Source: Terriglobia bacterium (GTDB lineage: Bacteria > Acidobacteriota > Terriglobia > Bryobacterales > Bryobacteraceae). Taken from it: 64,000 nucleotides of DNA. A program made the position numbers and the translations under genes. The DNA is taken from positions 1-64,000 of the forward strand of contig JAIQFI010000026.1 of NCBI GenBank assembly GCA_020073345.1. The letters run 5' to 3'. The notes beneath the pieces are model-generated. The model saw only the letters and a program-made list of their open reading frames with translations. It was not told the origin of the DNA and did no database searches. Positions 540 through 56,800 of this stretch are shown here, one piece after another (position 1 is the first letter of the stretch; each line of letters begins with the position of its first letter).

Positions 540-543
540 CGCT

Positions 544-1575: not shown

Positions 1576-1576
1576 T

Positions 1577-2239: not shown

Positions 2240-2261
2240 ACAGATCTTTCGACTCTATCGG

Positions 2262-4987: not shown

Positions 4988-4988
4988 C

Positions 4989-35280: not shown

Positions 35281-35281
35281 C

Positions 35282-38209: not shown

Positions 38210-38323
38210 CAGCCACAGCCAGTCTTCGGCTCTGAGCATCAGCCACTTTTCATATCTTTTGCGCATTCTTTCTTGAAGGGCCCATTGTTGACGGGCCTGC
38301 CAAACCCAAGAAGGAGGCGCCAC

Positions 38324-38638
38324 GTGACACATTGGACCACCAAGACCACCATTCGCCGTTCCTGGGCGGCGCTCAGGATGGGAGCCTACATTTCTATCTT
38401 GAGCGCCGCAACGCCGCTTGCAGTCCGCGCCGCATCGCCATGGGAAAATGCCGTGGATGTGTTGCAAACCGCGTTCACCGGGCCGATCGCGCGGGGCTTG
38501 AGCCTGGTTGCGATTGTCGTCGGAGGGCTGATGTTCGCTTTCGGCGAGGGCGAATCCAAGCGTATGCTGGCCGGCATCGTGTTCGGTATCGGAATGGCCA
38601 TCGGCGCGGTGAATTTCATGGCCTGGCTCTTTCCATAA
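38324..38638 (+). CDS. VirB2/TrbC-like conjugative pilin
   Basis: 104 residues. A long signal-like N-terminus (ALRMGAYISILSAATPLAVRAA) leads to a mature part with two hydrophobic helices (ARGLSLVAIVVGGLMFAF and MLAGIVFGIGMAIGAVNFMAW), the VirB2 pattern. The start is a GTG with AAGGAGG seven bases upstream; the frame is open earlier but without a site. First gene of the T4SS operon. Confidence 0.85.
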   Translation: MTHWTTKTTIRRSWAALRMGAYISILSAATPLAVRAASPWENAVDVLQTAFTGPIARGLSLVAIVVGGLMFAFGEGESKRMLAGIVFGIGMAIGAVNFMAWLFP

Positions 38639-38641
38639 TTC

Positions 38642-38941
38642 ATGCCGAGCGCGCCGAGTCTCCACCCCGTCTACCGATCTTTGAATAAGCCACTCACCAT
38701 CGCCGGTGCCGAACGTCGGTTGTTCTTCCTGGCTTTGGTCATGGGCGCCGCCACCTTCAACCTCTTCGGGAGCCTCTTTAGCGGCCTTCTGATGTTTGTC
38801 GCCCTCTACATATTGGCCCGCTGGGCCACAGTGACAGACCCGCAGATCTTGCGAATTCTTCTAAACTCCTCCAAGTTCAAAGCCCACTACGATCCGGGGA
38901 AGCGCGACACCAGCTTCGAAAGGAGGCGCCGCCGTGGTTAA
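38642..38941 (+). CDS. VirB3/TrbD-like T4SS inner-membrane protein
   Basis: 99 residues with a VirB3 layout: HPVYRSLNKPLTIAGAERRLFFLALVMGAATFNLF, a second hydrophobic stretch GLLMFVALYILARWATVTDP, and a basic C-terminus. VirB3 helps VirB4 engage the inner membrane. It overlaps the VirB4 GTG by 8 bases. Confidence 0.85.
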   Translation: MPSAPSLHPVYRSLNKPLTIAGAERRLFFLALVMGAATFNLFGSLFSGLLMFVALYILARWATVTDPQILRILLNSSKFKAHYDPGKRDTSFERRRRRG

Positions 38942-41264
38942 GGTGTCGCGCATTCTGAAGGACTATCGCGACGCAGGCGCGCTGAACGCGCTCGTCAACA
39001 TCCACGCCGCCATCGACGATTTTACATTCCTCACCAAAGGCGGGGACCTCGTCACTCTTCTGAAAGTCCAGGGCGTGGACACCGAGTGCATGGAACCCTT
39101 GGAGATAGATCAGATCGTCCGGCGCTTCGGCTCGGCGATACGTACTTTCAACGAGCAGTTCCGAATCTACCAGTACCTGGTCAAACGCGATTACGGACCG
39201 ATTCCTCACGGCCACTACGACGATCCCGTGATTCGAGAGGTGATCCGCAGCCGGACCGCGTATCTGGAGGCCAAAGGCCTCTATAACCTTGAAATCTACT
39301 TTGCCGTCGTCCACGAAGGATTGCGGCGGAATTCGAGTTTGCGGACCCGCCTGGCTGCCTTTGCCGCCAATCCCGCCGCGAGTGTCCGGGCGGCTTTGTC
39401 TACCGAGAAAACCATCGGCGTTCTCGAAGCGGATCTGGACCGCGGTCGGCACGAGTTGGCGAACAAAGTCAACAGCTTCGCAGTCCAGCTCCGCGACTTC
39501 GTCAAAATCGAAGTGCTCGACAAAAAGCGAGCGTTCGGATTCTTGCGACACCTGCTTAACTATGCGCCACACAAGGGGGAGGCGGCGAGCCTCGCCTTTG
39601 ACCAATTCGTTGATTTTCAGATGGTCGGCTCTTCTCTGGAGTGCCACCGGGACCATTTGCGGCTCGATAACCATTACGTCCAGGCACTGACCTTGAAGGA
39701 GCCTCCCGCGCAGACTTGGGCGAATCTGCTCAAAGGGCTGCAAGAGATCCCGGCTCAGTTTGTGATCGCCACCGAATGGAAGCGCATGGACAACCACGCG
39801 ATGCGCAAGCTCATTCAGTCCAAGCGGCGGCACTTCTACAACTCGAAAGCCTCCTTTATGAATTACTTGGGCCAGTCCGGAAATGCTCCCAGGGACATCC
39901 TGATCGATGACTCCGCGGCGGCGCTCGTGAATGATCTGGGCTCCTGCCTTGAACAAATGGAAGTGAACGGCAGCTTCTTCGGCGAGTTCTCGCTCACGGT
40001 GATCCTTTATGACGAGGACCTCACACGCCTGAAGGGTTCTGTGGCCGAGTGCTTCAAGGCGTTCTCGTCCATCGACGCGCAGCTCACCGAGGAGCGCTAC
40101 AACCTCTTGAACGCGTTTCTGGCCGTTCTGCCTGCGAATCACGCATTCAATCTACGGAAGATGTTTCTCTCCAACGCCAACTACGCCGATTTGTCGTTTC
40201 TCTTTGGGCCGAACACGGGCGACGTGCGAAACGCGCATCTCGGGACCGAGTATCTGACGGTGCTCGAAACGGACCGCCGGACGCCCTATTTCTTCAACTT
40301 CCACCATGGAGACATCGCCCACACCTTCATGCTGGGGATGACCGGAAGCGGGAAGAGCTTCACGCTCTCCCACCTGCTTACTCATGCGCAGAAATACAAC
40401 CCTCTGACCTATATCTTCGACTTGGGCGGCAGTTACCGGGAACTGACCGGTCGTTTCGACGGGACATATGTCCGGGTGGGCGCTGAAGAACGATCTTTCA
40501 CCATCAACCCGTTCAGTTTGCCGCCCACGCCGGAGCATCACCAATTCCAGTGTTTGCTTGTGCGGGTGCTCGCCGCGTCGAGCGGATATGAACTGACCGG
40601 CGCGGACGAGCGCGATCTTTTCGAGCAGATCCAGAACCTGTATTCCGTTGATCCGGGGCAGCGGCGTCTTCTGACGCTGGCTAACATTCTCGGCCGCAAT
40701 GTGCGCCAGGCGCTTGGGAAGTGGGTCCAGGGCGGCCAGTATGGAACGCTCTTTGACAACGTGCAGGACAACCTTACCTTTGCCCGGTTCCAGACGTTCG
40801 ACTTTGAAGGCATGGACAAAGTCCCGCAAGTCCTGGAGCCGCTTCTGTTCTACATCCTCCACCGGGCGCAGGCGGCCATTTATGATGCTGGCCTGGCCGC
40901 CACTTTCAAACTCTTCGTCATCGATGAAGCCTGGCGGTTTTTGCGCAATCCCTCGATCAAGCTTTACGTCCAGGAGGCCCTGAAAACCTGGCGTAAAAAG
41001 AACGCCGCCATGATTCTGGCTACCCAGTCTGGCGATGATCTTTTCCGCTCCGAGATGCTTCCGGTAATCGTCGAAAGCTGCGCCACGCAGATCTTCCTGG
41101 CCAACCCCGGCATGGATCAGGCGGCCTACTGCGAAGCGTTCCATCTGAGCGAAACCGAAGCCGCGGCCATCGCCGGGCTCGTCCCCAAGCGGCAGCTTCT
41201 CGTCAAGCGGCCGGATTTGACCAAGATTTTAAACCTAAACGTCGAAAGGAGCCGTCCATCATGA
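38934..41264 (+). CDS. VirB4/TrbE conjugal transfer ATPase
   Basis: 776 residues, starting at GTG. Walker A is GMTGSGKSF near residue 468, and Walker B is LFVIDEAWRFL near 658. The N-terminal half fits CagE/TrbE (RFGSAIRTFNEQFRIYQYLV). It energises pilus assembly and substrate transfer at the inner membrane. Complete, with no frameshift. Confidence 0.95.
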   Translation: MVKVSRILKDYRDAGALNALVNIHAAIDDFTFLTKGGDLVTLLKVQGVDTECMEPLEIDQIVRRFGSAIRTFNEQFRIYQYLVKRDYGPIPHGHYDDPVIREVIRSRTAYLEAKGLYNLEIYFAVVHEGLRRNSSLRTRLAAFAANPAASVRAALSTEKTIGVLEADLDRGRHELANKVNSFAVQLRDFVKIEVLDKKRAFGFLRHLLNYAPHKGEAASLAFDQFVDFQMVGSSLECHRDHLRLDNHYVQALTLKEPPAQTWANLLKGLQEIPAQFVIATEWKRMDNHAMRKLIQSKRRHFYNSKASFMNYLGQSGNAPRDILIDDSAAALVNDLGSCLEQMEVNGSFFGEFSLTVILYDEDLTRLKGSVAECFKAFSSIDAQLTEERYNLLNAFLAVLPANHAFNLRKMFLSNANYADLSFLFGPNTGDVRNAHLGTEYLTVLETDRRTPYFFNFHHGDIAHTFMLGMTGSGKSFTLSHLLTHAQKYNPLTYIFDLGGSYRELTGRFDGTYVRVGAEERSFTINPFSLPPTPEHHQFQCLLVRVLAASSGYELTGADERDLFEQIQNLYSVDPGQRRLLTLANILGRNVRQALGKWVQGGQYGTLFDNVQDNLTFARFQTFDFEGMDKVPQVLEPLLFYILHRAQAAIYDAGLAATFKLFVIDEAWRFLRNPSIKLYVQEALKTWRKKNAAMILATQSGDDLFRSEMLPVIVESCATQIFLANPGMDQAAYCEAFHLSETEAAAIAGLVPKRQLLVKRPDLTKILNLNVERSRPS

Positions 41265-42151
41265 AACCCGTCATACGCTGTCTTCTGTCTGTACAACTTG
41301 TCCTGTGCAGTGTTCTCATCGCCGGTCCGGGAGTGGAAGCCAAATCCCGCGCGGCCAAGAAGGCGCCGGACTCCGAGCCCGCCAAGCTTGCCGCGGCGCC
41401 CGAGCCGATCGTTCCGCCTCCGCCCGAATTTCAACTGGCCGGCACGGTGGTTCGCTATAGCGACAAGGACGTCGTCAAGGTCAAGACCAAACTGCGCTAC
41501 ACCACGCTCATTGTCCTGCCCAAAGGGGAACAGATCCTCGACTTCACGTGCGGCGACAAGGAGTTCTGGGTCGTAAACGGGACTCAGAACTTCGCCTACG
41601 TCAAGCCCGCCAAGGCCGGGGCTGAGACGAACCTGAACTTGATTACCGCCATCGGCAACATCTACTCGTTCGTGTTGAACGAAGTGTCCGACGTTCCGAA
41701 TACCCAGCCAGACCTAAAAGTCTTTATCGAACTCGAAGACGAATCCATGGCTTCCGTCGCGGGCGGCGCGCCCAGGTTTGTCTCGCATGAGGTCGTCGAA
41801 GACTACCGCCACCAGGCCGAGATCGCCAAGGAAGAGACCCAACAGGTGAAGCAGTCGGCGCAGGCCGCGATTGACAGCGGCATCAGTAAGTTTCTCTCAA
41901 ACGTCCGGTTCCCGTACCGTTTTGAGGCTGGAAAGAAACCCTTCTTCGTACGCGCCATGTATCACGACGACAAGTTCACCTACATTCAGGCGCGGCCGGA
42001 GGAGACGCCCACGCTTTATGAGGTCAAGGACGGCAAGCCCAACCTTGTGAACTTCACTTATAAGGATGGCGTCTATGCCATCGACAAGATCCTCGACGAA
42101 GGGTATTTGGCCATCGGTAAGCAAAAGCTTAGCTTTGAGCGCCAGGAGTAG
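41261..42151 (+). CDS. VirB9/TrbG T4SS outer-membrane core protein
   Basis: 296 residues with a signal peptide (LLSVQLVLCSVLIAGPGVEAK). TTLIVLPKGEQILDFTCGDKEFWVV and YVKPAKAGAETNLNLITAIGNIYSFVL are the N-terminal VirB9 strands. VRFPYRFEAGKKPFFVRAMYHDDKFTYIQARPEE is the C-terminal VirB9/CagX domain. It overlaps virB4 by 4 bases. Confidence 0.9.
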   Translation: MKPVIRCLLSVQLVLCSVLIAGPGVEAKSRAAKKAPDSEPAKLAAAPEPIVPPPPEFQLAGTVVRYSDKDVVKVKTKLRYTTLIVLPKGEQILDFTCGDKEFWVVNGTQNFAYVKPAKAGAETNLNLITAIGNIYSFVLNEVSDVPNTQPDLKVFIELEDESMASVAGGAPRFVSHEVVEDYRHQAEIAKEETQQVKQSAQAAIDSGISKFLSNVRFPYRFEAGKKPFFVRAMYHDDKFTYIQARPEETPTLYEVKDGKPNLVNFTYKDGVYAIDKILDEGYLAIGKQKLSFERQE

Positions 42152-42155
42152 TGTC

Positions 42156-43430
42156 ATGACTGATTCCGAGATACCCGGCGCACCGATAGTTCAAAAGAAG
42201 GCCGCGAACCCGCCCGGCATCCTGCCGCGCAATGCGCAAGCCTGGTTCATTGGCGGCATTTCGATTCTGATGGTGCTCGTGATCGCACTTTCGGGCGGCA
42301 AGGAATCGAAGGCGCGCGACGCGTCAGGAAAAGTGCAGACACCGCAAACCCAGGACCCGAACCAGCAGCGCATCGAAGAGTATCGGACACGCATAGACGA
42401 GCAGGCGCGCAAGCTGGCCGCGGAACAGGCCCAGCTTGCGCAGACCAAAGAGGTTCTTGGAATCACGCCCAACGCGACGGGGATGCGACCGGAGTCGCGC
42501 TACGCTGTTGCGGCGAGTCAGACGCCCCTCGCCTATGAGCGTCCTTCTGCTACCGAGAAAAACTGGATCGAAACCGATAGGGAAAAGCGCGAGTATCAGT
42601 CGCTGTTCGCGTCCAACGTCGCCTTGAGTTACCGGCCCGAAGCCAAACCGGGCGAACATGAAACAAAACTTTCGCCTGATGCGTCATTACTCAATAATGG
42701 TCGCGCGGACTCGGAGATTCGTGTGGAACGGGCGCAGCCGGAACCGGTTTCATCGGGAATCCCATCGGCTCCGGACATGCACGCCGCAGACATGCGCGGC
42801 GCAGTCGCTCACGAGCGCGATGCGGAGATCGACCGCGCGCAAGGCAAGAAGTACCGGCTCTTCGAAGGCACGGTAATCGAGACGGTTCTCACGAACCGTC
42901 TGGACGGATCGTTTTCGGGGCCTGTGAACTGCATGGTAACCACCAACGTCTATTCCCACGACCGGCAGCGGCTCCTCGTCCCGCAAGGTACGCGCGTCTT
43001 GGGCGAAGTAAAGCGCCTGGAGACTTTTGGCCAGGAGCGACTGGCCGTGGCGTTTCACCGGCTCATCATGCCGGACGGCTATTCGGTGAGCTTAGACCAA
43101 TTCCAAGGCCTGAACCAGATCGGCGAAACCGGGCTGCGCGATCAGGTCAATCATCATTATTTGCAGGTCTTTGGCGTCTCGCTTGCGATCGGTGCGATCG
43201 CGGGCTTGAGCCAGGTAAATACCCGCTCGGGGTTGGACGCCTCGGCGGAAGACGCCTACCGGCAGGGTGTGGCATCGAGCCTTTCGCAGTCTTCTCTGCG
43301 AATCCTGGACCGATACCTGAACGTCCTGCCGACGTTCACGATCCGGGAAGGCCACCGCATTAAAGTGTATTTGGCCGGGGACCTGCTTCTTCCGGCCTAT
43401 GAAAACCATCAGATGCCTGGCGATCTATAG
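42156..43430 (+). CDS. VirB10/TrbI T4SS core protein
   Basis: 424 residues. One membrane helix (AWFIGGISILMVLVIALSGG) near residues 30-48, then a proline- and charge-rich linker. The C-terminal TrbI/VirB10 beta-barrel includes FEGTVIETVLTNRLDGSFSGPVNCMVT, GTRVLGEVK and DYLPTF-like LNVLPTFTIREGHRIKVYLAGDL. It spans the envelope and links VirB4/VirD4 energy to the outer-membrane pore. The chosen ATG at 42156 is five bases after virB9; the frame is open earlier but only within virB9. Confidence 0.92.
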   Translation: MTDSEIPGAPIVQKKAANPPGILPRNAQAWFIGGISILMVLVIALSGGKESKARDASGKVQTPQTQDPNQQRIEEYRTRIDEQARKLAAEQAQLAQTKEVLGITPNATGMRPESRYAVAASQTPLAYERPSATEKNWIETDREKREYQSLFASNVALSYRPEAKPGEHETKLSPDASLLNNGRADSEIRVERAQPEPVSSGIPSAPDMHAADMRGAVAHERDAEIDRAQGKKYRLFEGTVIETVLTNRLDGSFSGPVNCMVTTNVYSHDRQRLLVPQGTRVLGEVKRLETFGQERLAVAFHRLIMPDGYSVSLDQFQGLNQIGETGLRDQVNHHYLQVFGVSLAIGAIAGLSQVNTRSGLDASAEDAYRQGVASSLSQSSLRILDRYLNVLPTFTIREGHRIKVYLAGDLLLPAYENHQMPGDL

Positions 43431-43438
43431 GAGGATTC

Positions 43439-43540
43439 ATGATCCAGTGGCTCCATCGTCACATTTTTCGAGGACTCGGAATCCTCATGCTGATCGGTAT
43501 TCTCACCATCTTGGTGCTCGCCTTTAGCTCGCACCAATAG
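43439..43540 (+). CDS. 33-residue single-helix membrane peptide in T4SS operon
   Basis: MIQWLHRHIFRGLGILMLIG then ILTILVLAFSSHQ. A basic N-terminus and one hydrophobic helix. It begins 8 bases after the virB10 stop, with TAGGAGGA immediately upstream at good spacing, and ends 26 bases before virB5. It lies where a VirB7-like or TrbK-like gene might be, but has no lipobox Cys, so it is not a typical VirB7. It may stabilise the inner-membrane complex. Confidence 0.65.
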   Translation: MIQWLHRHIFRGLGILMLIGILTILVLAFSSHQ

Positions 43541-43566
43541 GTTCAACAACAAGCACGGGAGGTCGT

Positions 43567-44385
43567 ATGAAACGAAAACTGACACTCGTAGTGTGCTCGC
43601 TCGCCGTTCTGGCCGGTCCAGCGTTCGCCATTTTCGGCCTGGGCGACATCGTCTTTGATCCTTCGAATCTCGAAGAGAACATCCAGCAACTCCTCCAGAT
43701 GGAACAGCAGTACACGCAGATGGCGGAGACCTATGAAGTAGCCCTCGGCCAGTACCAGCACATGATCCAGATGGCCAGGACCGTGCCGGTCAATATGGTG
43801 GCCCGCTACCGCGCTCTGGCGACGCCGTGGCGGTTTTCCTCCGCGACAGATACTTACGGAACGACTGGGGGCTGGATCAACGGCATCAATACCGGCGCGG
43901 GCGTCGCGTCCGGTTATTTGCGGGCGACTCAGAGCCTAATCGACTACGGAGCCGCCCTCAGCAACATCCCCGCCGATCAATTGGAGCGTGTCAAAACAGG
44001 ATACGCGACGGTCGAGTTGACCGATGGGGCGAATCGCGACGGGATCGAAACGATTGGCCGTCTCCGAGCGAACGCTCCGTCGGTAGCCACCGCCATTCAG
44101 GGCCTCGAAGACGATTCCCTTTCATCCGCCCCAAACATGAATACTGAGATCGCCGTCTTAAACAAGATCAACGCGGCGAACGTGATCTCGCTGCACGGGT
44201 CCCAAGACACCAATCAGCTCCTGGTAGCGCTTGCGGAGCAGCAGATCATCGACGCGAAACGCAAACGCGACGCCGAGGCCCAGGCCATCAACGACCACGT
44301 GCGCTTTGTTTCTGAGGGAAAGGCGGTGATGGCCGCCCAAGCCGCCAACGCCAGTTCCGCCATGCTGGCCTGGCGCATGCCGTAA
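43567..44385 (+). CDS. VirB5/TrbJ-like T4SS protein
   Basis: 272 residues with a signal peptide (LTLVVCSLAVLAGPAFA). FGLGDIVFDPSNLEENIQQLLQMEQQYTQM followed by a long helical region is the TrbJ/VirB5 opening. The C-terminal coiled region (LLVALAEQQIIDAKRKRDAEAQAINDHV) fits the family. VirB5-type proteins sit at the pilus tip or in the periplasm. Confidence 0.87.
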   Translation: MKRKLTLVVCSLAVLAGPAFAIFGLGDIVFDPSNLEENIQQLLQMEQQYTQMAETYEVALGQYQHMIQMARTVPVNMVARYRALATPWRFSSATDTYGTTGGWINGINTGAGVASGYLRATQSLIDYGAALSNIPADQLERVKTGYATVELTDGANRDGIETIGRLRANAPSVATAIQGLEDDSLSSAPNMNTEIAVLNKINAANVISLHGSQDTNQLLVALAEQQIIDAKRKRDAEAQAINDHVRFVSEGKAVMAAQAANASSAMLAWRMP

Positions 44386-44411
44386 CAGCTGATTGCCTTA
44401 AGGAGATCCCC

Positions 44412-45245
44412 ATGCCTCCCAGTACGATGAACGACCTTTTTGCGTTCCTGTCCCAGTTGATGACGGAGCACGCCGCCCTGTTCGAGACGATGGGCAGCCA
44501 TATGTTCAAGGCGTTTGCGGTCATCCTGATCAGTTGGTTCGGCGTGAAGAGCGCGCTCGCCTCCGCCTCGGGCGGCATGGTGCCGGCCCTTCATTACGAC
44601 CAGCTCGCGGGCCTCTTGATGACGATTGCCTTCGGGTTCGGGATGATTACCTACTATTCTCATCCTATCCCCGGCTTCGGTGTGAGTTTCTACCATCTTG
44701 TCATCGACCAGGGTCTCGATCTTTCAAACCAACTCAACCACTCCATCGTTCAGGACTTGTGGGACCGCCTGACCAATCTGTATTGGGGCATGGAGACGCC
44801 GGGCTTGACGATTGCGCTGAACATCCTTGAAATCCTCCGCTACGCCATCACGATCCTTTGCATCGTGGCGGCCCAAGCGGCTGTATTTGCGGTGATCGCG
44901 TTCGGGTACGTAGCCGCGGCCATCGCCGTCATGCTCGGCCCAATCTTCATTCCCTTCTTTATCGTGCCGCACATGGAATGGCTTTTCTGGGGATGGCTCA
45001 AGTCGCTGATCCAATACGCCTTCTATCCCGTAGTCGCGAACGCCTACGTGTTTGTCTTCGGCAACCTTCTGATCCACTTCATAGACGCCCACCAGCCGCC
45101 TTATGACGGCGCGACGATCCTGTTGCTGTTCTTTCCGCTGGTCCTCCTGCTGATCGCCTTCACGTTCGGGATTCTGAAGATCCCGTCGCTCGTGAATTCA
45201 CTATTTACCGGCCGCTCCGGGGAATCCGCGATCCCGCTCCTGTGA
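44412..45245 (+). CDS. VirB6/TrbL-like T4SS membrane protein
   Basis: 277 residues with six or more hydrophobic segments, including FKAFAVILISWFGVKSAL, LLMTIAFGFGMITYYSH, ILRYAITILCIVAAQAAVFAVIAFGYVAAAIAVMLGPIFIPFFI and LLFFPLVLLLIAFTFGIL. The central LGPIFIPFFIVPHMEWLFWGWLKSLIQYAFYPV is the conserved TrbL/VirB6 core. It forms part of the inner-membrane channel. AAGGAG precedes the ATG. Confidence 0.88.
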   Translation: MPPSTMNDLFAFLSQLMTEHAALFETMGSHMFKAFAVILISWFGVKSALASASGGMVPALHYDQLAGLLMTIAFGFGMITYYSHPIPGFGVSFYHLVIDQGLDLSNQLNHSIVQDLWDRLTNLYWGMETPGLTIALNILEILRYAITILCIVAAQAAVFAVIAFGYVAAAIAVMLGPIFIPFFIVPHMEWLFWGWLKSLIQYAFYPVVANAYVFVFGNLLIHFIDAHQPPYDGATILLLFFPLVLLLIAFTFGILKIPSLVNSLFTGRSGESAIPLL

Positions 45246-45251
45246 GGCGAC

Positions 45252-45938
45252 ATGTCTGATCTCATTCCACCGCCCGGCAAGGATTTCAACGCCGCCAAGC
45301 AGCAGTACATGGAACTCTACGGCTCGCTTGCCGTGATGAACACGTACCTGAAGATCGCGGTGCTGTGTCTGTCCCTGGTGTGTCTTGGGCTGATCTACGC
45401 CAACGTCAAAACCTACCAGCTCTTTCGCAATTTCAGGCCCCTGGTGATCCGGATCAACGACCTCGGCCGGGCCGAGGCCGTAAATTACACGAGCCTGGAA
45501 TACCAGCCCCGAGAGCCCGAGATTAAGTACTTTTTGATGCAGTTTGTGCAACAGCACTACGCGCGCACAAGAGCCACGGTGCGCGAAGACTACGCCCGCT
45601 CGCTCTACTTCCTGGACGGTCGGCTTGCCGACACGGTGATCGAGGCCAACAAGAAGACCAAAGCCATCGAAAGCTTCCTCACGGACCAGTCGGATGAGGT
45701 TGAGATCCGCGTGAATGGCGTCTCGATTGAAGACCTGCGCACGCCGCCGTACCGGGCGACCGTGGATTACGAAAAAGTGTATCTGGGCTCGGTGGATCAC
45801 GCCGAGAAGAAGCGCGAGAAGTACATCGGTAACTTCGTCTTCGAATTCCGCGAGCGCGTCCCCAACGCCATGATTCCGGTGAACCCCTTGGGTCTCACGA
45901 TCACCTATTTCCGAGCCGACCAGGCCTTCCAGCCATGA
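45252..45938 (+). CDS. VirB8/TrbF-like T4SS protein
   Basis: 228 residues. One N-terminal membrane helix (YLKIAVLCLSLVCLGLIYANV), then a periplasmic NTF2-like domain with VINDLGRAE-like IRINDLGRAEAVNYTSLEYQP, VRVNGVSIEDL-like segment and YIGNFVFEFRERVPN. VirB8 nucleates inner-membrane assembly. It starts 6 bases after virB6 and overlaps the next gene by 4 bases. Confidence 0.87.
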   Translation: MSDLIPPPGKDFNAAKQQYMELYGSLAVMNTYLKIAVLCLSLVCLGLIYANVKTYQLFRNFRPLVIRINDLGRAEAVNYTSLEYQPREPEIKYFLMQFVQQHYARTRATVREDYARSLYFLDGRLADTVIEANKKTKAIESFLTDQSDEVEIRVNGVSIEDLRTPPYRATVDYEKVYLGSVDHAEKKREKYIGNFVFEFRERVPNAMIPVNPLGLTITYFRADQAFQP

Positions 45939-46225
45939 TACGAAGCGCCCTCTTCGTGACTGCCGTGATCTTCCTCGCTCTGGGGTTGTTCCTCATGGGT
46001 GAGTGCCGATTCCTGATCCCGTACCGGGCGCTCCTGCTGCACGAGTACGGCGAGACCATTCTTCTCTTCTCGGTGGCCCTTTTCGTAAATGTGTTCACCG
46101 CTATCTACCTTATCTGCCGCGAGCTTTTCCTCAAGGACACGGGTCGTAAGCTTGCCCACGTCGATAAACAGCTCCGCAGTGGGCAGAGCATTTCTGAGGA
46201 GCTGTCGCGGTATCTGGAGGACTGA
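45935..46225 (+). CDS. Small two-helix membrane protein in T4SS operon
   Basis: 96 residues. Two hydrophobic segments: ALFVTAVIFLALGLFLMGECRFLI and ILLFSVALFVNVFTAIYLICREL. A charged C-terminal tail ends SISEELSRYLED. No family recognised. Its ATG overlaps the virB8 TGA (ATGA), so it is co-translated. It may be an accessory of the inner-membrane complex. Confidence 0.72.
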   Translation: MIRSALFVTAVIFLALGLFLMGECRFLIPYRALLLHEYGETILLFSVALFVNVFTAIYLICRELFLKDTGRKLAHVDKQLRSGQSISEELSRYLED

Positions 46226-46226
46226 C

Positions 46227-47060
46227 ATGGACAGGGACATGGACCGAGAGCCGATTCAGAGCCCTCAACAGCGTGACCCTGCGGATCGGGACGGCGGGCG
46301 CCGGCTGCATGAGCGCGTACGCGAAGGGCGGCATTTCTACCGCCTAAGTCCTGATGAGCGCACGACCATGTACGACGTGGGACGCTTCCGCATCGCCACG
46401 GCAAAGGACCTTTGCGAACTCCGCTACAAGGGAAACGAGTCCCAAATGGGGGCGGATCTCCGATCCTTGTCGGCCCAGGGGCTAGTCGCGGAGAAGACCG
46501 TTTGGACGGGCCGCGACCGCGAAACCGACACGTTCTTCACGCTCACCAAACCGGGCAAGAAGCTGCTTAAAAGCCTGCATCTTGGCCCTTCAGACCAGGC
46601 GATCTACGCCGGATTTGTGAAACCTGCCGAGCTGCGCCACGATGCGGCGATCTACCGGATGTTTCACCTGGAAGCCGCCAAAATCGAGCAGGAAGGTGGG
46701 CGCATCCGACGGGTCGTTCTGGACTTTGAGCTCAAGAAAAAGGCGTACTCGCCGCTGGCCAAAGCCAAGGCTCTGGCGCCCGCTGAATACGTCCGCCGCC
46801 AAGAAGAAATCGCGCGCGACCACGGTCTCAGAGTCGTTAACGGCCACATTACTTTGCCGGATCTGCGGATTGAATACGAGGACCGTCACGGCGTGGCCGC
46901 GCAGATCGATTTGGAGGTGGCCACCGACAGTTACCACGGCTCACATGCCGCCGGCAAGGCCGCCGCAGGATTCAAGATTTACGCTTCCTCAGAGACAGCG
47001 GCGCGCCTCAGCCGGGCTCTGGAAGAGCGCGAAATCACAGCCGACATTCTTTCCTTATAA
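46227..47060 (+). CDS. Replic_Relax-like protein (candidate DNA-processing factor)
   Basis: 277 residues. Residues about 40-110 form a winged helix (DVGRFRIATAKDLCELRYKGNESQMGADLRSLSAQGLVAEKTVW). The C-terminal half has HDAAIYRMFHLEAAKI, then LPDLRIEYEDRHGVAAQIDLEVATDSYHG, like the Replic_Relax family (wHTH plus a nuclease-like fold). Such proteins occur beside VirD4-type genes in conjugative elements. The metal-binding pattern is not fully the PD-(D/E)xK type because Lys is missing. An ATG at 46227 follows CTGGAGG and is one base after the previous stop. Confidence 0.72.
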   Translation: MDRDMDREPIQSPQQRDPADRDGGRRLHERVREGRHFYRLSPDERTTMYDVGRFRIATAKDLCELRYKGNESQMGADLRSLSAQGLVAEKTVWTGRDRETDTFFTLTKPGKKLLKSLHLGPSDQAIYAGFVKPAELRHDAAIYRMFHLEAAKIEQEGGRIRRVVLDFELKKKAYSPLAKAKALAPAEYVRRQEEIARDHGLRVVNGHITLPDLRIEYEDRHGVAAQIDLEVATDSYHGSHAAGKAAAGFKIYASSETAARLSRALEEREITADILSL

Positions 47061-47070
47061 GGAGGACGAC

Positions 47071-48084
47071 GTGACTAACACCGAACGGATTCAAGCCCTG
47101 ATGCGCTTCGGATACACCGAACGAGAGGCGGCATTCATCTGTCTTGTCGCTCTCAGCGGAGGCTTCTTCTTACGCCGTCAATACTGCGAGTTTGCCAAGG
47201 CCGGGGACGGCGGCACAGTAACCGCGTTCATCGAAAAGCTTCTCCGAAATGAGCATGGACGGATGGTCACGGGTTTTGGCAATCTTCGCGTCCACCACAT
47301 CTTTGCCAGGCCCATTTACAACGCCATCGGCCAGGAAAACAGCCGCAACCGGCGCGAGCGGGCGACGGTGGCCATGAAGAACAAATTAATGGGCCTTGAC
47401 TTCGTTTTAGGGCACCCCGGCAACACATATCTGATGACCGAGCAGGAGAAGTTTTGCTACTTCACCTCGACGCTTGGCATCGCGATCACCGACCTGCCTG
47501 TGAAGGAATTCCGCTCACCCACTGCTGAGGATTCGACCAGCAGGTATTTCATCGACAAGTATCCGATCTTCCTTCCCCTCACCGCCGGAGAGATCCCCTC
47601 AGTCTCGTTCACCTTCATTGATGAAGGCATCGTGACCAGCTCGCGCTTTGAGACTTATTTGCGTCAATACGAGCGGCTCTTTGCGCGCCTGGCTCGCTTC
47701 GCGATCGTCTACGTCGCGACCTCAGACCAGCCGTTTGGCTCCGCCGAAAAGGCCTTTGAAAGCTTCCTTTCCGGGGGCGGGCGGCACTATCTCGACCGCC
47801 TGAGAGTGGCCGATCCGAAGCGTCTAGCCGAATATTTTGCGCGCCAGCACCTGTCGGAAACAAAGCAATTCGACTCGTGGAAGACAGCCGACTTTATTCA
47901 ACTGCGGAACTACCGTGAAGAGTTTTCGGGGCCGTTCTACAAGGCTCTTTACAACCGCTGGAAAGTTCTCGGTGATCAGGCGTTTCAAGATGTCTTCGGA
48001 AACCGCCAACCGGTGATTGACCCTTCACATGCTTGCTTTACGACCTGCCTCTTGCCGCACAACTATGACATTTTCGGGAAGTAA
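47071..48084 (+). CDS. Hypothetical protein of conjugative element
   Basis: 337 residues from a GTG preceded by AAGGAGG. The N-terminus (TERIQALMRFGYTEREAAFICLVALSGGFFLRRQYCEFA) resembles a winged helix like the preceding gene's. The rest includes RRERATVAMKNKLMGLDFVLGHPG and SFTFIDEGIVTSSRFETYLRQYERLFARLARFAIVYVAT. It may be a partner of the Replic_Relax-like protein: the gap is 10 bases and both open with wHTH-like domains. I do not recognise a family beyond that. Confidence 0.65.
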   Translation: MTNTERIQALMRFGYTEREAAFICLVALSGGFFLRRQYCEFAKAGDGGTVTAFIEKLLRNEHGRMVTGFGNLRVHHIFARPIYNAIGQENSRNRRERATVAMKNKLMGLDFVLGHPGNTYLMTEQEKFCYFTSTLGIAITDLPVKEFRSPTAEDSTSRYFIDKYPIFLPLTAGEIPSVSFTFIDEGIVTSSRFETYLRQYERLFARLARFAIVYVATSDQPFGSAEKAFESFLSGGGRHYLDRLRVADPKRLAEYFARQHLSETKQFDSWKTADFIQLRNYREEFSGPFYKALYNRWKVLGDQAFQDVFGNRQPVIDPSHACFTTCLLPHNYDIFGK

Positions 48085-48390
48085 TCCATGCCAAATGAGA
48101 ACCCCTGGGCCGAGCGCATTTCCCAAAAGGACGCAGCATGAGCCTCTGCACGGTCTCTGCCACTGTCTCAATATCCCCGTGTTCAAACCGCTTGAAAATA
48201 CACCAAAACCGAGAAAACAACCGCGGGGAAAGTGTCCGAGGAAAAATTCGCGGCGTGGGCCGGAGCGACCCCGGATTGGGCGTTCTTCGCCCGCCCAATC
48301 CTTCCAGCGCCCGAAGTCTGGCGCCTGAATCGCTCCGGCCCACGCTCTTGTAGTTAGCGGGCAATTGCCCGGCGGAAATAGGAGGAGTTA
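48085..48390 (+). other. Non-coding region with large nested inverted repeat (oriT candidate)
   Basis: 306 bases before the RHH/VirD4/VirB11 block. A perfect 16-base inverted repeat (48253-48268 and 48330-48345) encloses a hairpin GGATTGGGCG/CGCCCAATCC (48273-48282 and 48292-48301) and a weaker GCGCC/GGCGC stem (about 48307-48324). Two short open frames here have no features. Position next to relaxosome-type genes suggests an origin of transfer; a structured RNA or a MITE-like repeat are alternatives. Confidence 0.6.
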
Positions 48391-48600
48391 ATGTCCTACA
48401 TGCCAAAGCAGGTGAAGCCAGCCAGGGAGCGCGTTGAGGCCAAACTCGAACGCGAACTGATCCGGCAATTGGAACTGTACTGCGAGTACCTGGAGAGTGA
48501 TCGGGATTATGTCGTCAGCCAGGCGCTTGAGATCGCGTTTCAGAAGGACAAAAGTTTCGCCGAGTGGCGGAAATCACATCCGGGAGCGCAGAGGCAGTGA
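48391..48600 (+). CDS. Small ribbon-helix-helix-like protein
   Basis: 69 residues: VEAKLERELIRQLELYCEYLESDRDYVVSQALEIAFQKDKSF is a strand-helix-helix layout like CopG/Arc proteins. RHH proteins often bind oriT as relaxosome accessories or repress transfer. AGGAGG precedes the ATG. Its stop overlaps the VirD4 start by one base. Confidence 0.65.
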   Translation: MSYMPKQVKPARERVEAKLERELIRQLELYCEYLESDRDYVVSQALEIAFQKDKSFAEWRKSHPGAQRQ

Positions 48601-50603
48601 TGCGAACTGTGCCTGATAGCAGAATCGTTCTGGTGATCGGCTTGAGCGCTGCGCTCGGCGTGGCCGCTCTCTACCGCTGGCCATTCCCGGAAGATAACGA
48701 CCTACTGCAGCTCATCGAATCCCAGAAGCCCTGGCTCTTCGATGGGATCAAGTATGCCTATCAAGCGATGCTCTTCACGACGCCTTGCATTGCGCTTTCG
48801 GTAGCCTCCTCGCTCGCCTACATCTTCGCCAGGCGACCCGGAAGAACTACCGGATTTCCCAAACTCCCGGCGTACCCTAATCCAGCCGGACGGAAGGATC
48901 TCTTCGTTGTCATCGGGGAGCTGCATCATCCGAAGCGTCCCGAACCGGTGGAGGGGCCGCGTTGGCTGGTACTGCCGAGTCGGGGACTTTTCACGGGCAT
49001 CGCGGTCTTTGGCGCGATCGGCACCGGCAAGACCAGCGGCTGTATGTACCCGTTTGCCGAGCAGTTGCTGACCTACCAGGCTTCCGATCCTATGCGCCGG
49101 ATCGGAGGGCTGGTGCTAGAGGTGAAAGGCGACTTCTGCCGCAAGGTTCGGGAAATCCTCAAACGAGACGGACGTGAAGCCGATTACGTGGAGGTCAGCT
49201 TGGAGTCGCCTTACCGGTACAATCCGCTCTATAACGACCTAGACGCATACGCCCTCGCTTACGGGATTGCGTCTCTCCTGAACAACCTCTATGGAAAGGG
49301 CAAGGAGCCGTTCTGGCAGCAAGCGTACACGAACCTGGTGAAGTTCATCATCTTGCTTCACAAGGTTCTCTACGACTACGTGACCCTCTTTGACGTTTAC
49401 GAGTGCGCGATCAATCCGCAGCTTATCGAGCAAAAGATCGCCGAAGGCGACCGGCTCTTTGAGCGACGTTCGCTCTTGGTCACGCTCGACGATTTCATGG
49501 CCGACAAGCGCCTGGAGAATTACCCATTCGAACGCGACTCCGACGCGAACCGCATGAAGGCTCCTTATTCGGGCGAATTGGAGGCGACTCTTAAGGAACG
49601 GAACATCGGCTACGAGCTACAGACCGAGTTGGACCAAACCGAGAGATCTGGCAGCGTAGCGACGGATCACAAGCGCCAGCAGTTCGAGGCCGTCAAACGC
49701 TGGTTTGTTCACGACTGGTCTCAGATCGATCCCCGGCTCCGAACCTCGATTGTGGAGGGCATCGCTGTCTTTCTGTCGCTCTTTGACGATAACCCCGCGG
49801 TGAAGCGCATCTTCTGCCCACCGAAAGAGGCATACGACCCGGTTGCGAACGCCGATGGCAGATTTGGGAAGCCGCTTCCTCCTTTCAGCGAACTGATCGA
49901 AACGGGAGCCGTGTGCGCGCTCGATTTTCCCGTAGCCGCGAATCCGGGTCTTGCCAAGATCATCGGCACGCTGATGAAGCAAGATTTCCAGCGGGCGGTC
50001 TTGACTCGGATTCCACGGATTGAAAGGGAGCCCGACCGGCACTTTCGGGAAGTGCTTTTCCTTTGCGACGAATACCAAGGCTTCGCCACAGTGGGGGAGA
50101 ACGATCCCTCCGGCGATGAGAAGTTCTTCGCGCTTTCGCGCCAAGCCAAATGCATTCCGATTGTGGCCACGCAGAGCATTAGCTCGCTGCGGTCCACCTT
50201 GCCCGGCGAATCCTGGCGGACGCTTCTTCAAACCTTTCGGACCAAAATCTTTCTGACGTTGTCGGATGACTTCAGCGCCAGGACCGCGAGCGATCTCTGC
50301 GGCAAGGAGGAGCAACTGAAGCCCAGCTATACTATCTCTGAAAACGGCCAAGATGCCGGCGTGAGCGTTCTCACCGGGCGGGCGACGGCGCAGAAGGCGA
50401 CACTGAGCGCGAGCAAGGCATACCATCTTCAACGGGACTTCACGTTCGAACCGAAGATATTTGCGGAACTGAAGAACGCCCAGGCGATCGTGCTCGCCTA
50501 CGACGGTACCAACCCGCACCCGCCTACCTACTGTTATCTGAAACCGTACTACCTGGACCGGAACCGGTCTTATTTCGAGCAACTCGCCGGAGGTGACCTA
50601 TGA
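48600..50603 (+). CDS. VirD4/TraG coupling protein
   Basis: 667 residues. Two N-terminal membrane helices (IVLVIGLSAALGVAALY and AMLFTTPCIALSVASSLAYIFA). Walker A is GAIGTGKTSG near residue 140, with the neighbouring LVLEVKGDF; Walker B is VLFLCDEYQGF near 485. Motif AKCIPIVATQSISSLRSTL follows. It recruits DNA-relaxase substrate to the channel. Preferred ATG at 48600 gives the overlap with the RHH-like gene; the frame is open from 48564 only through that gene. Confidence 0.93.
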   Translation: MRTVPDSRIVLVIGLSAALGVAALYRWPFPEDNDLLQLIESQKPWLFDGIKYAYQAMLFTTPCIALSVASSLAYIFARRPGRTTGFPKLPAYPNPAGRKDLFVVIGELHHPKRPEPVEGPRWLVLPSRGLFTGIAVFGAIGTGKTSGCMYPFAEQLLTYQASDPMRRIGGLVLEVKGDFCRKVREILKRDGREADYVEVSLESPYRYNPLYNDLDAYALAYGIASLLNNLYGKGKEPFWQQAYTNLVKFIILLHKVLYDYVTLFDVYECAINPQLIEQKIAEGDRLFERRSLLVTLDDFMADKRLENYPFERDSDANRMKAPYSGELEATLKERNIGYELQTELDQTERSGSVATDHKRQQFEAVKRWFVHDWSQIDPRLRTSIVEGIAVFLSLFDDNPAVKRIFCPPKEAYDPVANADGRFGKPLPPFSELIETGAVCALDFPVAANPGLAKIIGTLMKQDFQRAVLTRIPRIEREPDRHFREVLFLCDEYQGFATVGENDPSGDEKFFALSRQAKCIPIVATQSISSLRSTLPGESWRTLLQTFRTKIFLTLSDDFSARTASDLCGKEEQLKPSYTISENGQDAGVSVLTGRATAQKATLSASKAYHLQRDFTFEPKIFAELKNAQAIVLAYDGTNPHPPTYCYLKPYYLDRNRSYFEQLAGGDL

Positions 50604-51568
50604 GTTGGGATGTTATCATTCCGTTCTTGCGACCCATCGAAGCCCTGATCCGGGACCCGGAGATCTCCGACATCATGGTCAACGGCTCCTCCCAGGTATT
50701 CATTGAGAAGCACGGAGAGCTCATGCCCGTGCCGAGTGTCGCGATCTCAGAGAAGTCCTTGCAGGTTGCAGTTCGCAATATAGCCCGTGTCTTGGGCGAT
50801 GAAATCAGCGAAGAGAAGCCGCTCCTTGACTCTCGACTGCCGGACGGATCGCGGGTGGCAGCGGTGTTCCCGCCCTGTTCAGTCAGCGGTACTATCCTGG
50901 CCATCCGGAAATTCCACAGCAAGCGGTACACGGCTGATGAGCTAACCCGGATCGGAACGCTAACGCTCCCTCTACTAAACGACCTCCGGGACGCCATCGA
51001 AAAGCGCCAGAACATCCTGATTTCAGGCGGTACTGGGACCGGCAAGACTACGCTCTTGAACGCGCTAGCCTCCTCCATCCCGGACGGCGAGCGGGTAGTC
51101 GTGATTGAGGATACCTCCGAGCTTCAGCTCCAGAAGCCCAACCTCGTTCGCCTAGAGTCCCGGCGGGAGCATCCGGGACTTCCGGCGGTGACGATTAGGG
51201 ATCTCTTGCGAGCCACCCTCCGGCTTCGACCAGACCGGATCTTATTGGGTGAGGTGAGGGGCGGGGAAGCGTTTGACCTGCTGCAGGCTCTTAATACTGG
51301 CCATGCTGGGTCGCTCTGCACGATCCACGCGAACTCCGCGGAGTTGGCCCTGTCCCGCTTCACGAGTTGCGTCCTCATGTCCGGGATTGAACTGCCGTAC
51401 GCCGCGATTCGGGCGAACATCGCCGACGCGCTCGATCTGGTCGTGCACATCGAGCGTCGGCACGGGAAGCGGTTTGTCGCCGAGGTCCTTCAGGTCGAAC
51501 GCTATGTGCCTGCCACTGACAATTTTGAGTTCGTCCACAAGTTCCAGCGCTCGGAGGCATCATCATGA
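50600..51568 (+). CDS. VirB11/TrbB secretion ATPase
   Basis: 322 residues. Walker A is GGTGTGKTTLL near residue 143, the Asp box is VVVIEDTSELQL, Walker B is ILLGEVRGGEA, and the His box is HAGSLCTIHAN. A hexameric ATPase that powers pilus assembly and substrate transfer with VirB4. It overlaps the VirD4 stop by 4 bases. Confidence 0.94.
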   Translation: MSWDVIIPFLRPIEALIRDPEISDIMVNGSSQVFIEKHGELMPVPSVAISEKSLQVAVRNIARVLGDEISEEKPLLDSRLPDGSRVAAVFPPCSVSGTILAIRKFHSKRYTADELTRIGTLTLPLLNDLRDAIEKRQNILISGGTGTGKTTLLNALASSIPDGERVVVIEDTSELQLQKPNLVRLESRREHPGLPAVTIRDLLRATLRLRPDRILLGEVRGGEAFDLLQALNTGHAGSLCTIHANSAELALSRFTSCVLMSGIELPYAAIRANIADALDLVVHIERRHGKRFVAEVLQVERYVPATDNFEFVHKFQRSEASS

Positions 51569-52428
51569 ATCGGGGCATCGCGGCCAATTTTGTTCACGGC
51601 CTATTCCAACCTTCGGACCGGCTGGCGGTCGTCCTAGTGAATAAGCGTACGGGAGTCGTGACACAGCGGATCGCCTCCGCCGAGCGGATCGCCGCGCCGG
51701 GGATTCAGGGCTGGCTCCGCTACCAGAATGCCCAGAAACACGAAGTCTATATCTCAATGAACCCCCTGAAGACCGATGCCCACGGTCGCACCAAGGACGA
51801 CGTGGCGACGATACGTCACATTTACCTTGATTTCGACCATAACGGGTCGGCAGCGCTTCACGCGCTTTTCAGGCGAGAAGATACTCCGATGCCGAGCCTA
51901 ATCGTAAATACGTCGCCGGACAAGTGGCAGGTCATTTGGCAGGCTGAGGGCTTCAGCAAAGAACAGGCGGAGAGCCTCCAAAGACACCTTTCGCGTGATA
52001 CGGGCGCAGATCCGGCTGCAACTGATTGCTCTCGCGTCCTTAGGCTGCCGGGTTTCTACAACCATAAGTATGATCGGCCTTACCTGGTTCGGGCCGAACC
52101 GCACGCGGCCTTAGCCGGGACCATCTACCGGCTTGAAGATTTCCCAAGATTTCCGGAGGCTCTCCCGAAGTTACGACCGCACCGAACTGGGACTACGTCG
52201 AGAATCAGCAGTTCTTCCCAGTCGGAATACGATTGGGCGTATGCCAAACGAGCTCTTGCGAGAGGAGAACCGGAAGAGTTGGTGGTTGCCGCGATCGCTA
52301 TGCATCGCCGAAACGACAAACATGACCCAATGTACTACGCTGGTCTCACGGTCAAGAACGCCAAAGCCTCTCTCAACGCTGACAAAGATCTCTCGCGATC
52401 TTTAGCCGACCCCCCGCTGGAACGGTGA
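51565..52428 (+). CDS. RepB-type DNA primase-like protein
   Basis: 287 residues. IRHIYLDFDHNG carries the Asp-x-Asp of the archaeo-eukaryotic primase-like fold, IVNTSPDKWQVIWQAEGF follows, and TDCSRVLRLPGFYNHKYDRPYLV is the RepB_primase signature. Such primases restart synthesis on the transferred single strand. It overlaps virB11 by 4 bases and ends the operon; the next gene has its own spacer. Confidence 0.85.
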   Translation: MNRGIAANFVHGLFQPSDRLAVVLVNKRTGVVTQRIASAERIAAPGIQGWLRYQNAQKHEVYISMNPLKTDAHGRTKDDVATIRHIYLDFDHNGSAALHALFRREDTPMPSLIVNTSPDKWQVIWQAEGFSKEQAESLQRHLSRDTGADPAATDCSRVLRLPGFYNHKYDRPYLVRAEPHAALAGTIYRLEDFPRFPEALPKLRPHRTGTTSRISSSSQSEYDWAYAKRALARGEPEELVVAAIAMHRRNDKHDPMYYAGLTVKNAKASLNADKDLSRSLADPPLER

Positions 52429-53850: not shown

Positions 53851-56800
53851 TCAATAGAGGATGTGGTCCCAACCTGGCGCCCAAACAGGCGTTGGTGGAG
53901 AAACCAGACCACTCTTTTCTAATATCGTGTGGGCGAAAGAGTTACTGTTCTGCCGAATGGGAAGGTATGGCAAATGAAGATTCTCAATCGTGCTCGCGGC
54001 AGCGTTGAAATTATTGATCGCCGCGTCGTAGGAGAGGGTCCCGCTAGGAACCTGCATGCTGGCCACGTCATCGGACGGACCCTTCGGGTAATCCTTGAAG
54101 TTGGTATCGAATGTCGTCCCACTTCCGGCTTTAGTCAGGTAGCCAAATCCGGGTGGAGTCAATGGGAGGCCAAGCACATCCCTGAGAAGATCCGAACTCT
54201 GATTCGGATCGGAGAGAGTAGGGCCGCCGCGGAAACCAATAGTGGCGCGGTGCGGCTGCTTCACCAGAACGTACGCATGATGATAGGGTGTGTTCGTAAT
54301 CGGTATCGTCCCCAACAGGTCAAAGTGTACTTCTATTCTTGTTTGACTTACAACCGGGGCCTCCACAAGATCTGGAATTGTCAAGATGATGGACGCAATC
54401 GCCAATTCCAGCGAAACCGACGCTATGTCGAATTGATTGCCGCTGGGGTCCAGCCGCAGCACCGGCTCATTACCGGCGTATGTGTACTTGTGCAGGGAAA
54501 CCGGCGAGTCTGCGTCGCCTTCAACGTTATCAATCGTCCAGAATCGCCCTGTGGACTGGCTCAGGTATCGTGCGCGCAAGTAATAGAGGCCCAGATTCGG
54601 GTCATTCTGCTCGCCGGAATACAGATACACGTTTGGCGTCGTGCCGGCCTGGCTGATGATGTTCCCGAATGCGTCGTAATCGTAACGGTCGGTCACCGTT
54701 CCGGTGGCATCGGTTAGCAGCCGCACGCTGCCATGTCCGTCATACCCATAGAAGCTGGTCCCGGACGCCTGGCTCTGGCTGATGCGATTGAGACCGTAGG
54801 TATAGACTCGTTGAACCGCGCCACCACTGATCTCCTCCAGCACCTGCGCGTAGCCGGTCAAGTTGCGGTCATCCACGAGGTACTTGGTTGTGACGCCCCC
54901 AACCGTCTTTGCGATGCGATTACCGTCGCCGTCATAAACGATATTGACGGCGGTGCTTCCAGTCTGAGTCGTCAAGTGGTTCTCGAAATCGTAGGCGAAC
55001 GTGTTTCCGCCCGAGGCGATGGTATTGCCGTTGTTGTCGTAAGCGTCACTCGTCAACCGGTCGTTGGCATCGTAGCTGTAGCTAGCTGCAGGAACGGGAG
55101 CAACGGTCGAGGTGCGCTGCTGCCGGTTGCCTACAGGATCATATTGATAGCCGATGGCGCCGTTGATCGAGCCGCCTGAAATCGTCTCCGCCTTCAGCCG
55201 GTACAGGGCGTCATAGGTATAGCCCACCTGGCGGCCACCCAATTCGGTTACCTGCGTTCGGTTGCCCGCTGCGCCGAGCGTGTAAGCGAAGCTCGCCAGC
55301 GTGCCGCTCTTCGTGATCGCCATGTTGGTGAGGCGGTTGAGCGCATTGTAAGAGTAGCCGGTCTGCACTCCGTTGGGGTAGAGATAGCTCTGCAGATTTC
55401 CGGCGTTGTCATAGCTGTACGTCGTGATCCCGGCAGCCAGGCGGTTGTCCTTCGCGGTTGAGAGCCGGTTGAGCGAATCGTAGGCGTAATCAACGGAAGT
55501 TCCCCCGATGTTCGAGGAACGCACCGTAGCCAAATCCCCGGCGAGGTCATAAGTGTAAGTGAGCGTTCCTTCGGGCGTTGCCTTCTGAGTGAGCCGGTCC
55601 CGCTGGTCATAGGTGTACGACGTGGTTCCGCTGGCATCGACCATATTCTGGCGCTGGCTGGTCGCGGTGTAGGTGAAGCTCACCGCAGGCTCGCCGAAAC
55701 TTGCGTCCGGTGCTTTGCTGGCCAACCTGTTCACACTGTCGTAGTTGTAGGTTGTAGTCTTCCCGTTGAAATCTGTCTTGGCCTTAAGATTGCCCGCCGC
55801 GTCGTAAGTCATCGTTTCAAACATGCCGAGCGGGAGAGTGCGCTTGGTGCGCCGCCCCAGCTTGTCATAGGCGAAAGTGGTTGTATCGCTATTCGCGTCG
55901 ATTTGCGACAGGCGGTTGCCTAGCTCGTCGTAGGTGTACCGGGTAAGCTGACTGAGAGCATCCGTGACCTTCGTGAGTCGGCCCAACTTGTCATACTCGA
56001 ATTGCGTTGTCTGGCCGGCTTGGTCCGTCTTTGCAGTCGTGCGGCCCAAGGCGTCGTAGCCGGTGGAATCGAAGGTGGTGTCGGGGTAGGTTACCTTCGT
56101 CCGGCGGTTGAGAGCATCGTACTGATACTGCGTCGTGTTGCCATTGGCATCCTTCATCGACGCCTGGTTTCCGGCCGCGTCATAAGTGAACGAAGTCGTA
56201 CGAGTCAACGCGTCTGTCACGCTGGCCCGGCGCCCGGCGTCGTCGTAGTCATAGGTCGTCGCGTTCCCTCGCGGATCGGTCACCTGCGTGACCTGTCCCG
56301 CCGCATCATAGGTAGTTTGGGTCACGGCGGCGTCCGCGTAGGTCGTTTTCTTCAGCCGTTTGAGTGGATCGTATTCATAGGAGGTCGTGCGGCCTCCCCG
56401 GTCGGTGGAAGACGTGCGGTCGCCTTCAGCATCGTAACCAGCTCCTTCGTGCGTGCCGTCAGGATAGTTCGTCTGGGTCAACCGGCCCATGAGATCGTAC
56501 TGATAACTCGTCTGATGACCGAGTTGGTCAAACGTGACGCTCTGTTTGCCAATCTCGTTGTACTGAGTCTGCGTGGTCGATCCATCCGGATAGATGGTCT
56601 TGGTCAGGCGGCTTAGCTTGTCATATTGATAGTTCGTCACCAGGGTTTCCGGCCCGGAGGTCGTGGTCCGCGACTTGGTTTCCGTCAGCCGGTCGCCATT
56701 CCCGTCATAGGTGTAGGTCGTGATATTTCCGAGTGCATCGGTCTGCTGGGTCAGGTTCCCAGAGGCGTCGTATTGGTAACTTGTAATGCCACCCAGCGGA

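Follow-up and report, generated by a model that had tools for sequence, protein, structure and literature searches.

A nested inverted repeat in a secretion operon

The window, by which we mean the whole 64,000-nucleotide stretch analyzed here, carries a secretion operon interrupted by a single folded element. On the plus strand, virB2, virB3, virB4, virB9, virB10, a virB5/trbJ-like gene, virB6, virB8 and a gene for a 96-aa protein (38273–46225) are followed by wh (46227–47060), which encodes a candidate relaxase, and u (47071–48084), whose product is a conserved and probable relaxosome partner. Beyond the gap that holds the element lie genes for a small RHH-like protein of 69 aa (48391–48600), probably an accessory DNA-binding protein, the VirD4/TraG coupling protein (48600–50603), the VirB11 ATPase (50600–51568; T2SSE) and a RepB-type primase (51565–52428; PF16793), all on the same strand. 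An earlier note on this DNA had placed RHH and VirD4 genes downstream of the repeat. The VirD4 assignment holds, with TraG-D_C and TrwB_AAD_bind domains, whereas the RHH assignment is weak: the protein has no Pfam or NCBIfam RHH match, and it matches a PHROG repressor at E 0.0037 and CopG in the PDB at E 0.35, where bacterioferritin is the best row (0.09).

A tyrosine recombinase gene, possibly that of the integrase of an integrative conjugative element (ICE), lies to the left of the operon on the minus strand (34081–35319; PF00589). By eye, a second integrase-like gene directed at a tRNA-Ser is present at locus L086 (6409–7449 and 7492–7581, or 70409–71449 and 71492–71581 of contig C70), an arrangement that mirrors the integrase and tRNA-Tyr at 33.9–35.3 kb; the two are possibly nested elements. 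Searches for attachment repeats defined no ICE ends, returning one 15-mer for the left integrase, taken as chance, and none of length at least 14 for the right one. Just upstream of the virB operon, at 35902–38209, an ECF sigma factor gene precedes one for a Ser/Thr kinase with pentapeptide repeats, both possible regulators of the secretion cluster. Elsewhere in the window, minus-strand genes at 246–8169 resemble, by eye, a type I-C CRISPR-Cas set (Cas2, Cas1, Cas4, Cas7, Cas8c, Cas5, Cas3), and a 3376-aa open frame at 53851–63981, also on the minus strand, has YD/RHS-like and beta-propeller-like repeats by eye.

The element itself spans 48253–48345 and is assigned to neither strand. Its outer arms, 48253–48268 and 48330–48345, are complementary at 16 of 16 positions across 61 intervening nucleotides. 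Enclosed by them are an inner hairpin (48273–48301), whose arms 48273–48282 and 48292–48301 pair 10/10 around a 9-nt loop, and a third, shorter hairpin (48302–48329) made of 5 bp (48307–48311 with 48320–48324) plus 48302–48304 with 48327–48329; a three-way junction fold is possible. The 93-base nested repeat of the earlier note, with its 10-base inner hairpin and third short stem, thus lies exactly where that note had put it, and the gap of some 300 bases described there measures 306 bp (48085–48390), from the gene end at 48084 to the RHH-like gene at 48391. Folded as DNA, 48233–48365 reaches −42.4 kcal/mol (z −6.47), a depth that none of 200 dinucleotide shuffles attained, and its RNA fold has a z of −5.87, again attained by none of 200 shuffles. 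In a scan of all starts before the last 120 bases of the window, the outer stem was the only perfect one to reach 12 bp at a span of 41–120 nt.

Many dispersed copies would have pointed to a MITE and away from an origin of transfer (oriT), as the earlier note had argued. The window genome (97.5% complete, 98 contigs) holds a single full copy, and nothing else in it matches beyond a 16-mer. On this result the MITE alternative is rejected and the oriT inference withstands the copy search.

The site upstream of virD4 in related bacteria

A nested repeat with the core AGCGACC...GGTCGCT recurs upstream of virD4 across Acidobacteriota. VirD4 relatives occur in 13 of 150 family genomes (E up to 0.001) and, at E up to 1e-100, in 30 of 257 order genomes and 18 of 396 phylum genomes, the window genome being counted each time. 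The survey set comprised 52 virD4 loci, with related species counted separately; L032–L034, L036–L038 and L063 (weak or partial matches) were left out, as were eight matches without a locus. A site was called when the core motif pair (one mismatch allowed per motif) and at least 13 of 19 pairs were found within 1.5 kb upstream of virD4. This rule was satisfied at 36 of 52 loci. Among 2600 dinucleotide shuffles it was satisfied by 24, and among the 52 downstream flanks by none; the contrast is somewhat inflated because the core and the rule were derived from the counted loci. Two further sites were recognized by eye, at the window locus (L022) and L035, bringing the count to 38 of 48 assessable loci. 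L049, L056, L078 and L079 were not assessable, virD4 being partial there or the upstream sequence short or missing. The element was not found by virD4 at L050, L076 (runs of N) or eight loci of genus g84 (L051–L055, L057–L059).

Gene order and spacing vary within limits. Most of the 16 larger clusters examined have the order wh, u, element, virD4. At L060 and L061, which pass the rule, about 1.4 kb separates the site from the downstream virD4, and in genus g81 (L182) the site is about 1.4 kb from virD4, yet 7.5 kb from u. Two g84 clusters, L179 and L186, carry repeats between u and virD4 whose cores are altered but compensated (TGCGACC, AGCAACC); these were not counted. The strict form of a pattern scan found the site in 5 of 150 family genomes, each time adjoining wh/u or virD4 genes. 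When a genome contig collection was searched with the RHH-like protein, a single relative came up, in a MAG of Acidobacteria; it is surrounded by the same genes and accompanied by an inverted repeat with the same core and a partly different outer stem.

Many loci also have a second inverted repeat, which stands at most 230 bp upstream of the element at 21 of 34 loci, compared with 47 of 680 mononucleotide shuffles. In f4 genomes (L071 at about 689–768, L073 at 656–737, L074 at 658–735), a second strong inverted repeat lies about 155–160 bp upstream of the element, and these sequences are alike. No second repeat was found upstream of the window element. The left outer arm there holds the AGCGA of the conserved core (AGCGACC, 48264–48270), and on the right the window reads AATCGCT (48328–48334) instead of the GGTCGCT of its relatives, which breaks two core pairs. 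With two broken core pairs and no second repeat, the window copy may be an atypical one, decayed or diverged, and its ICE is therefore possibly less active or equipped with a diverged partner.

Outside the core the letters of the repeat vary while pairing is maintained. We aligned 39 rows on the core, of which 32 were kept once near-identical ones were removed. L049–L059, L076, L078 and L079 had been skipped beforehand; L074 (a duplicate), the window copy (too many core mismatches) and L035 (the only row under the pairing score limit) were dropped; and copies from G120, the G244 island, G066 and L182 were added. At L073 and L074, the automatic choice of the stem survey was a different repeat. 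Positions −3, −2, +1, +4 and +5 are paired in 39 of 39 rows. Across positions −10 to −1, the 32 non-redundant rows are 89.7% Watson-Crick paired against a shuffled mean of 54.6% (maximum 60.6% in 1000 right-arm shuffles), again a somewhat inflated contrast because rows were chosen by best pairing. The same rows hold 81 two-sided changes, where the shuffled mean is 17.

Conservation of this kind could reflect either DNA or RNA structure. Mismatches at helix positions −6 to +6 comprise 3 G.T, 5 A.C and 4 others, and all 39 rows together contain 10 G.T and 11 A.C mismatches. A minus-strand wobble bias suggested by the first loci was gone with all rows included. Because pairing is kept without a wobble excess on either strand, DNA is favored over RNA. 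Rfam gave nothing above the gathering threshold (two sub-threshold matches, E 1.7 and 4.9), and on both counts the structured RNA that the earlier note had entertained is disfavored. The inner hairpins keep their place while their sequence changes, pointing to a structural role in the single-stranded state.

A candidate relaxase and copies away from secretion genes

Neither wh nor u has a Pfam or NCBIfam assignment. The wh protein is modeled (pLDDT 89) with a winged helix at its N-terminus and an alpha/beta part (helix, strands, helix, strand) at its C-terminus; residues 31–119 align with MarR 3vod_A (Z 10.9, rmsd 1.7, 77 aligned). P211, D212, E230, T233, Y236 and K244 are invariant in the family and D228 is present in 90% or more, and in the model the motif order of the C-terminal part resembles that of PD-(D/E)XK enzymes. 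The PDB matches listed were filled by winged-helix rows and included no restriction-endonuclease chain, which does not speak against such a fold.

A possible relation of wh to known relaxases was sought through PF13814 (Replic_Relax), a family equated with MobC in streptococcal IMEs (PMC5357655). PF13814 matches 2 of 22 wh family members (best E 1.3e-4), and the window member is not one of them. Its cut-off is reached by no wh place in 18 genomes, with sub-threshold matches at the wh of G255 and G058 (E 0.02–0.03), and hhalign of wh against nine true PF13814 members (E 5.7e-5, probability 66%) covers the winged helix only. Because these matches are weak and the profile similarity is limited to the winged helix, we do not file wh as a MOBC member; in the oriT reading it is a candidate that would act like a MOBC relaxase.

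The u protein combines an N-terminal winged helix with an alpha/beta part and belongs to no known family. Foldseek ranked FokI second (E 0.10, probability 0.35) and also listed MspJI (E 0.51), and the u profile touches the catalytic stretch of PF13814 members (E 0.0031, probability 10%); all three are leads only. A kinship between wh and u was considered, and profile comparison shows no relation. No plasmid in PLSDB encodes a relative of either protein.

Copies of the site also occur beside integrases and apart from secretion genes. An 11.7-kb contig of G120 bears an integrase, wh, u and the element, with the integrase 2.5 kb from the site, and secretion genes were not found on it. In G110, an integrase, the element, u and a wh fragment lie within 15 kb of the start of a 32-kb contig (C73), the complete cluster being on another contig; the two copies are 82.5% identical over 782 bp, part of u included. 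G244 has a second site (C7:172114) 62 kb from the cluster's own and about 0.7 kb from an integrase, within a 19.9-kb stretch where no secretion, wh or u gene was found. This island copy and the cluster copy are alike only over 165 bp around the element (90.9%) and over a 36-bp repeat (97.2%), and the sequence between is unrelated. The G244 integrase is related to those of G120 and G110 (41–42% identity); of 16 other stretches searched, two contained further relatives of the three, namely G583 (29%) and the window (25%, weak). By eye, the G244 island (L173, 5000–15000) has ArsR, arsenate reductase, methyltransferase, MerR and mercury transporter genes beside the oriT-like site and integrase.

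Genus g84 carries 66-nt relatives of the element with the same arms, dispersed and numbering up to four per genome. These repeats (L175, L176, L177, L178, L190, L191, L204, L207, L210, L213, L214) have arms like CGGGAGCGACC, and the flank TTGCAGGAAGGC is common to at least two of them. Integrase-related sequence lies within about 1.5 kb at 7 of 11 such repeats and at 0 of 25 pattern-scan control places (p 4e-5). Including G249:C34, a longer variant with a 27-residue integrase match, the count is 8 of 12; leaving out the two loci that supplied queries, it is 5 of 9 (p 0.0005 against 0 of 25). With g84-only controls (0 of 8) p is 0.013, or 0.029 without those two loci, making the integrase link a modest one, and several of the integrase matches are incomplete or run off the end of the locus. 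The g84 count accordingly weighs little in the case for oriT. Two further g84 pattern matches, G248:C48 and G251:C46, were judged unrelated, and G248:C48 was used as a control. Sites carried near integrases in stretches of 11.7 to 19.9 kb where secretion genes were not found are what a shared oriT would leave. Judged from sequence, the cluster and integrase-side copies together present the pattern of a predicted oriT common to an ICE and hitchhiking islands.

A predicted origin of transfer

We conclude that the 93-base element is likely the oriT core of an ICE, of a type that we found undescribed. Inverted repeats near putative relaxosome genes in a conjugative cluster are what an oriT should look like. 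The same folded site, at the same spot in many relatives and on islands where no secretion machine was found, favors this reading. The oriT inference of the earlier note thereby gains support, both from the conserved place beside MOB-like genes and from the integrase-side copies without secretion genes.

Judged by the gene set and by what is known of conjugation, transfer could then proceed as follows. The wh protein, with its PD-(D/E)XK-like motif, would be the relaxase; wh and u, perhaps together with the RHH-like protein, would bind the repeat, and one strand would be nicked at or near it. VirD4 would deliver the relaxase with its bound strand to the VirB channel. In the single-stranded DNA, hairpins would form and help in recognition or in re-joining after transfer, and islands bearing only the site would be mobilized in trans.

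Other functions account for parts of these observations. The element occupies the gap directly upstream of rhh-virD4-virB11, and winged-helix and RHH-like proteins are commonly repressors, so that the repeat might be an operator or promoter element through which such proteins control this transcript. We consider this unlikely, as the element also occurs at places whose surroundings showed neither rhh nor virD4, and its two internal hairpins and stems of mostly 15–26 bp go beyond what an operator requires. It is kept, moreover, at L062, L075 and L077, three of 18 loci examined, where the interval from element to virD4 showed no RHH-like gene; these loci weaken the idea of an RHH operator only. 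The element may additionally be an operator, and oriTs can overlap promoters, for example in IncA/C (PMC5587640).

The tyrosine integrases near island copies raise the question of a site-specific recombinase site, for attachment or resolution of the islands, and an IncA/C repeat first taken for oriT2 did prove to be a recombination site (PMC5587640). Such a role is improbable here: the same core is found with two kinds of integrase (int_G244-like and g84 type), and in the window and G583, the sole clusters where three integrase queries (none of the g84 type) had relatives, these are at least 13 kb from the element. Hairpins are typical of single-strand initiation or replication sites, and the RepB-type primase gene (51565–52428) belongs to the same operon, yet the elements persist in the G212, G583, G395, G609, G310 and G322 stretches (the last two about 16 kb), where tblastn finds no primase relative, and a site for this primase is very improbable. 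We give next to no weight to a structured RNA leader of the rhh-virD4 transcript, which would explain the strong RNA fold but is at odds with the −6 to +6 mismatch counts and the lack of an Rfam match over threshold. As little goes to insertion of a MITE or REP-like repeat in front of the operon, because the nested inverted repeats and the multi-copy 66-nt relatives in g84 that would suit it are set against a single copy in the window genome, a position that recurs across the phylum, and a G244 island copy that shares a separate 36-bp repeat too, with unrelated sequence between.

The oriT reading invites a broader proposal, which we put forward tentatively and with real doubt. It is that the relaxase of an Acidobacteriota-wide conjugation family may be of a new type, formed by two neighboring winged-helix proteins of which only one has an intact PD-(D/E)XK-like motif, that this relaxase may recognize a three-way-junction oriT, and that many chromosomal islands, some with metal-resistance genes, have captured the same site.

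As a predicted oriT system, the cluster has parallels in several known ones. MOBC relaxases are described as related to the PD-(D/E)XK superfamily, with a winged helix at the TraX N-terminus, and wh, as modeled, resembles in architecture the MOBC type, to which pAD1 TraX and CloDF13 MobC belong (PMC12857230); pAD1 is also named among plasmids with inverted repeats in oriT (PMC5587640). In contrast to MOBC systems, wh falls below the PF13814 cut-off, two winged-helix genes are consecutive, and an AGCGACC/GGTCGCT-type core is absent from the descriptions of pAD1 and CloDF13 on which the comparison is based. Like iMOB and iOriT elements, integrated islands that exploit another element's machinery, G120 and G110:C73 would combine relaxase and oriT (iMOB), while G244 and g84 would carry oriT only (iOriT) (PMC11389934). 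They differ in belonging to Acidobacteriota and in being islands predicted from sequence, with ends not delimited. The oriT mimics of staphylococcal pWBG749 (PMC8136818) are similarly common to conjugative and non-conjugative elements, a likeness of description rather than of sequence or protein; the mimics are on plasmids, whereas the islands here are chromosomal or contig-borne. In pLS20, too, the oriT region lies inside the conjugation operon with RHH auxiliary genes (PMC5675868). That system has a MOBL relaxase and is from Firmicutes, and the RHH assignment here is weak, the gene being sometimes absent.

Among the matches listed for Acidobacteria or Acidobacteriota oriT, relaxase or ICE, none describes, by its title or opening lines, this element, an acidobacterial oriT or a tested relaxase. 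Acidobacteria are abundant soil bacteria. That they carry ICEs has been reported, in an account that for most MOBless T4SS favors protein secretion over unknown relaxases (PMC3158045). The Acidobacteriota family described here may be a case of an unknown relaxase in a MOBless T4SS, and its element is a short DNA substrate on which a distant MOBC-like enzyme could be tested. Clusters that are relaxase-less by standard profiles could be recast as conjugative, and an oriT sequence signature would allow conjugative and hitchhiking islands to be found in acidobacterial genomes.
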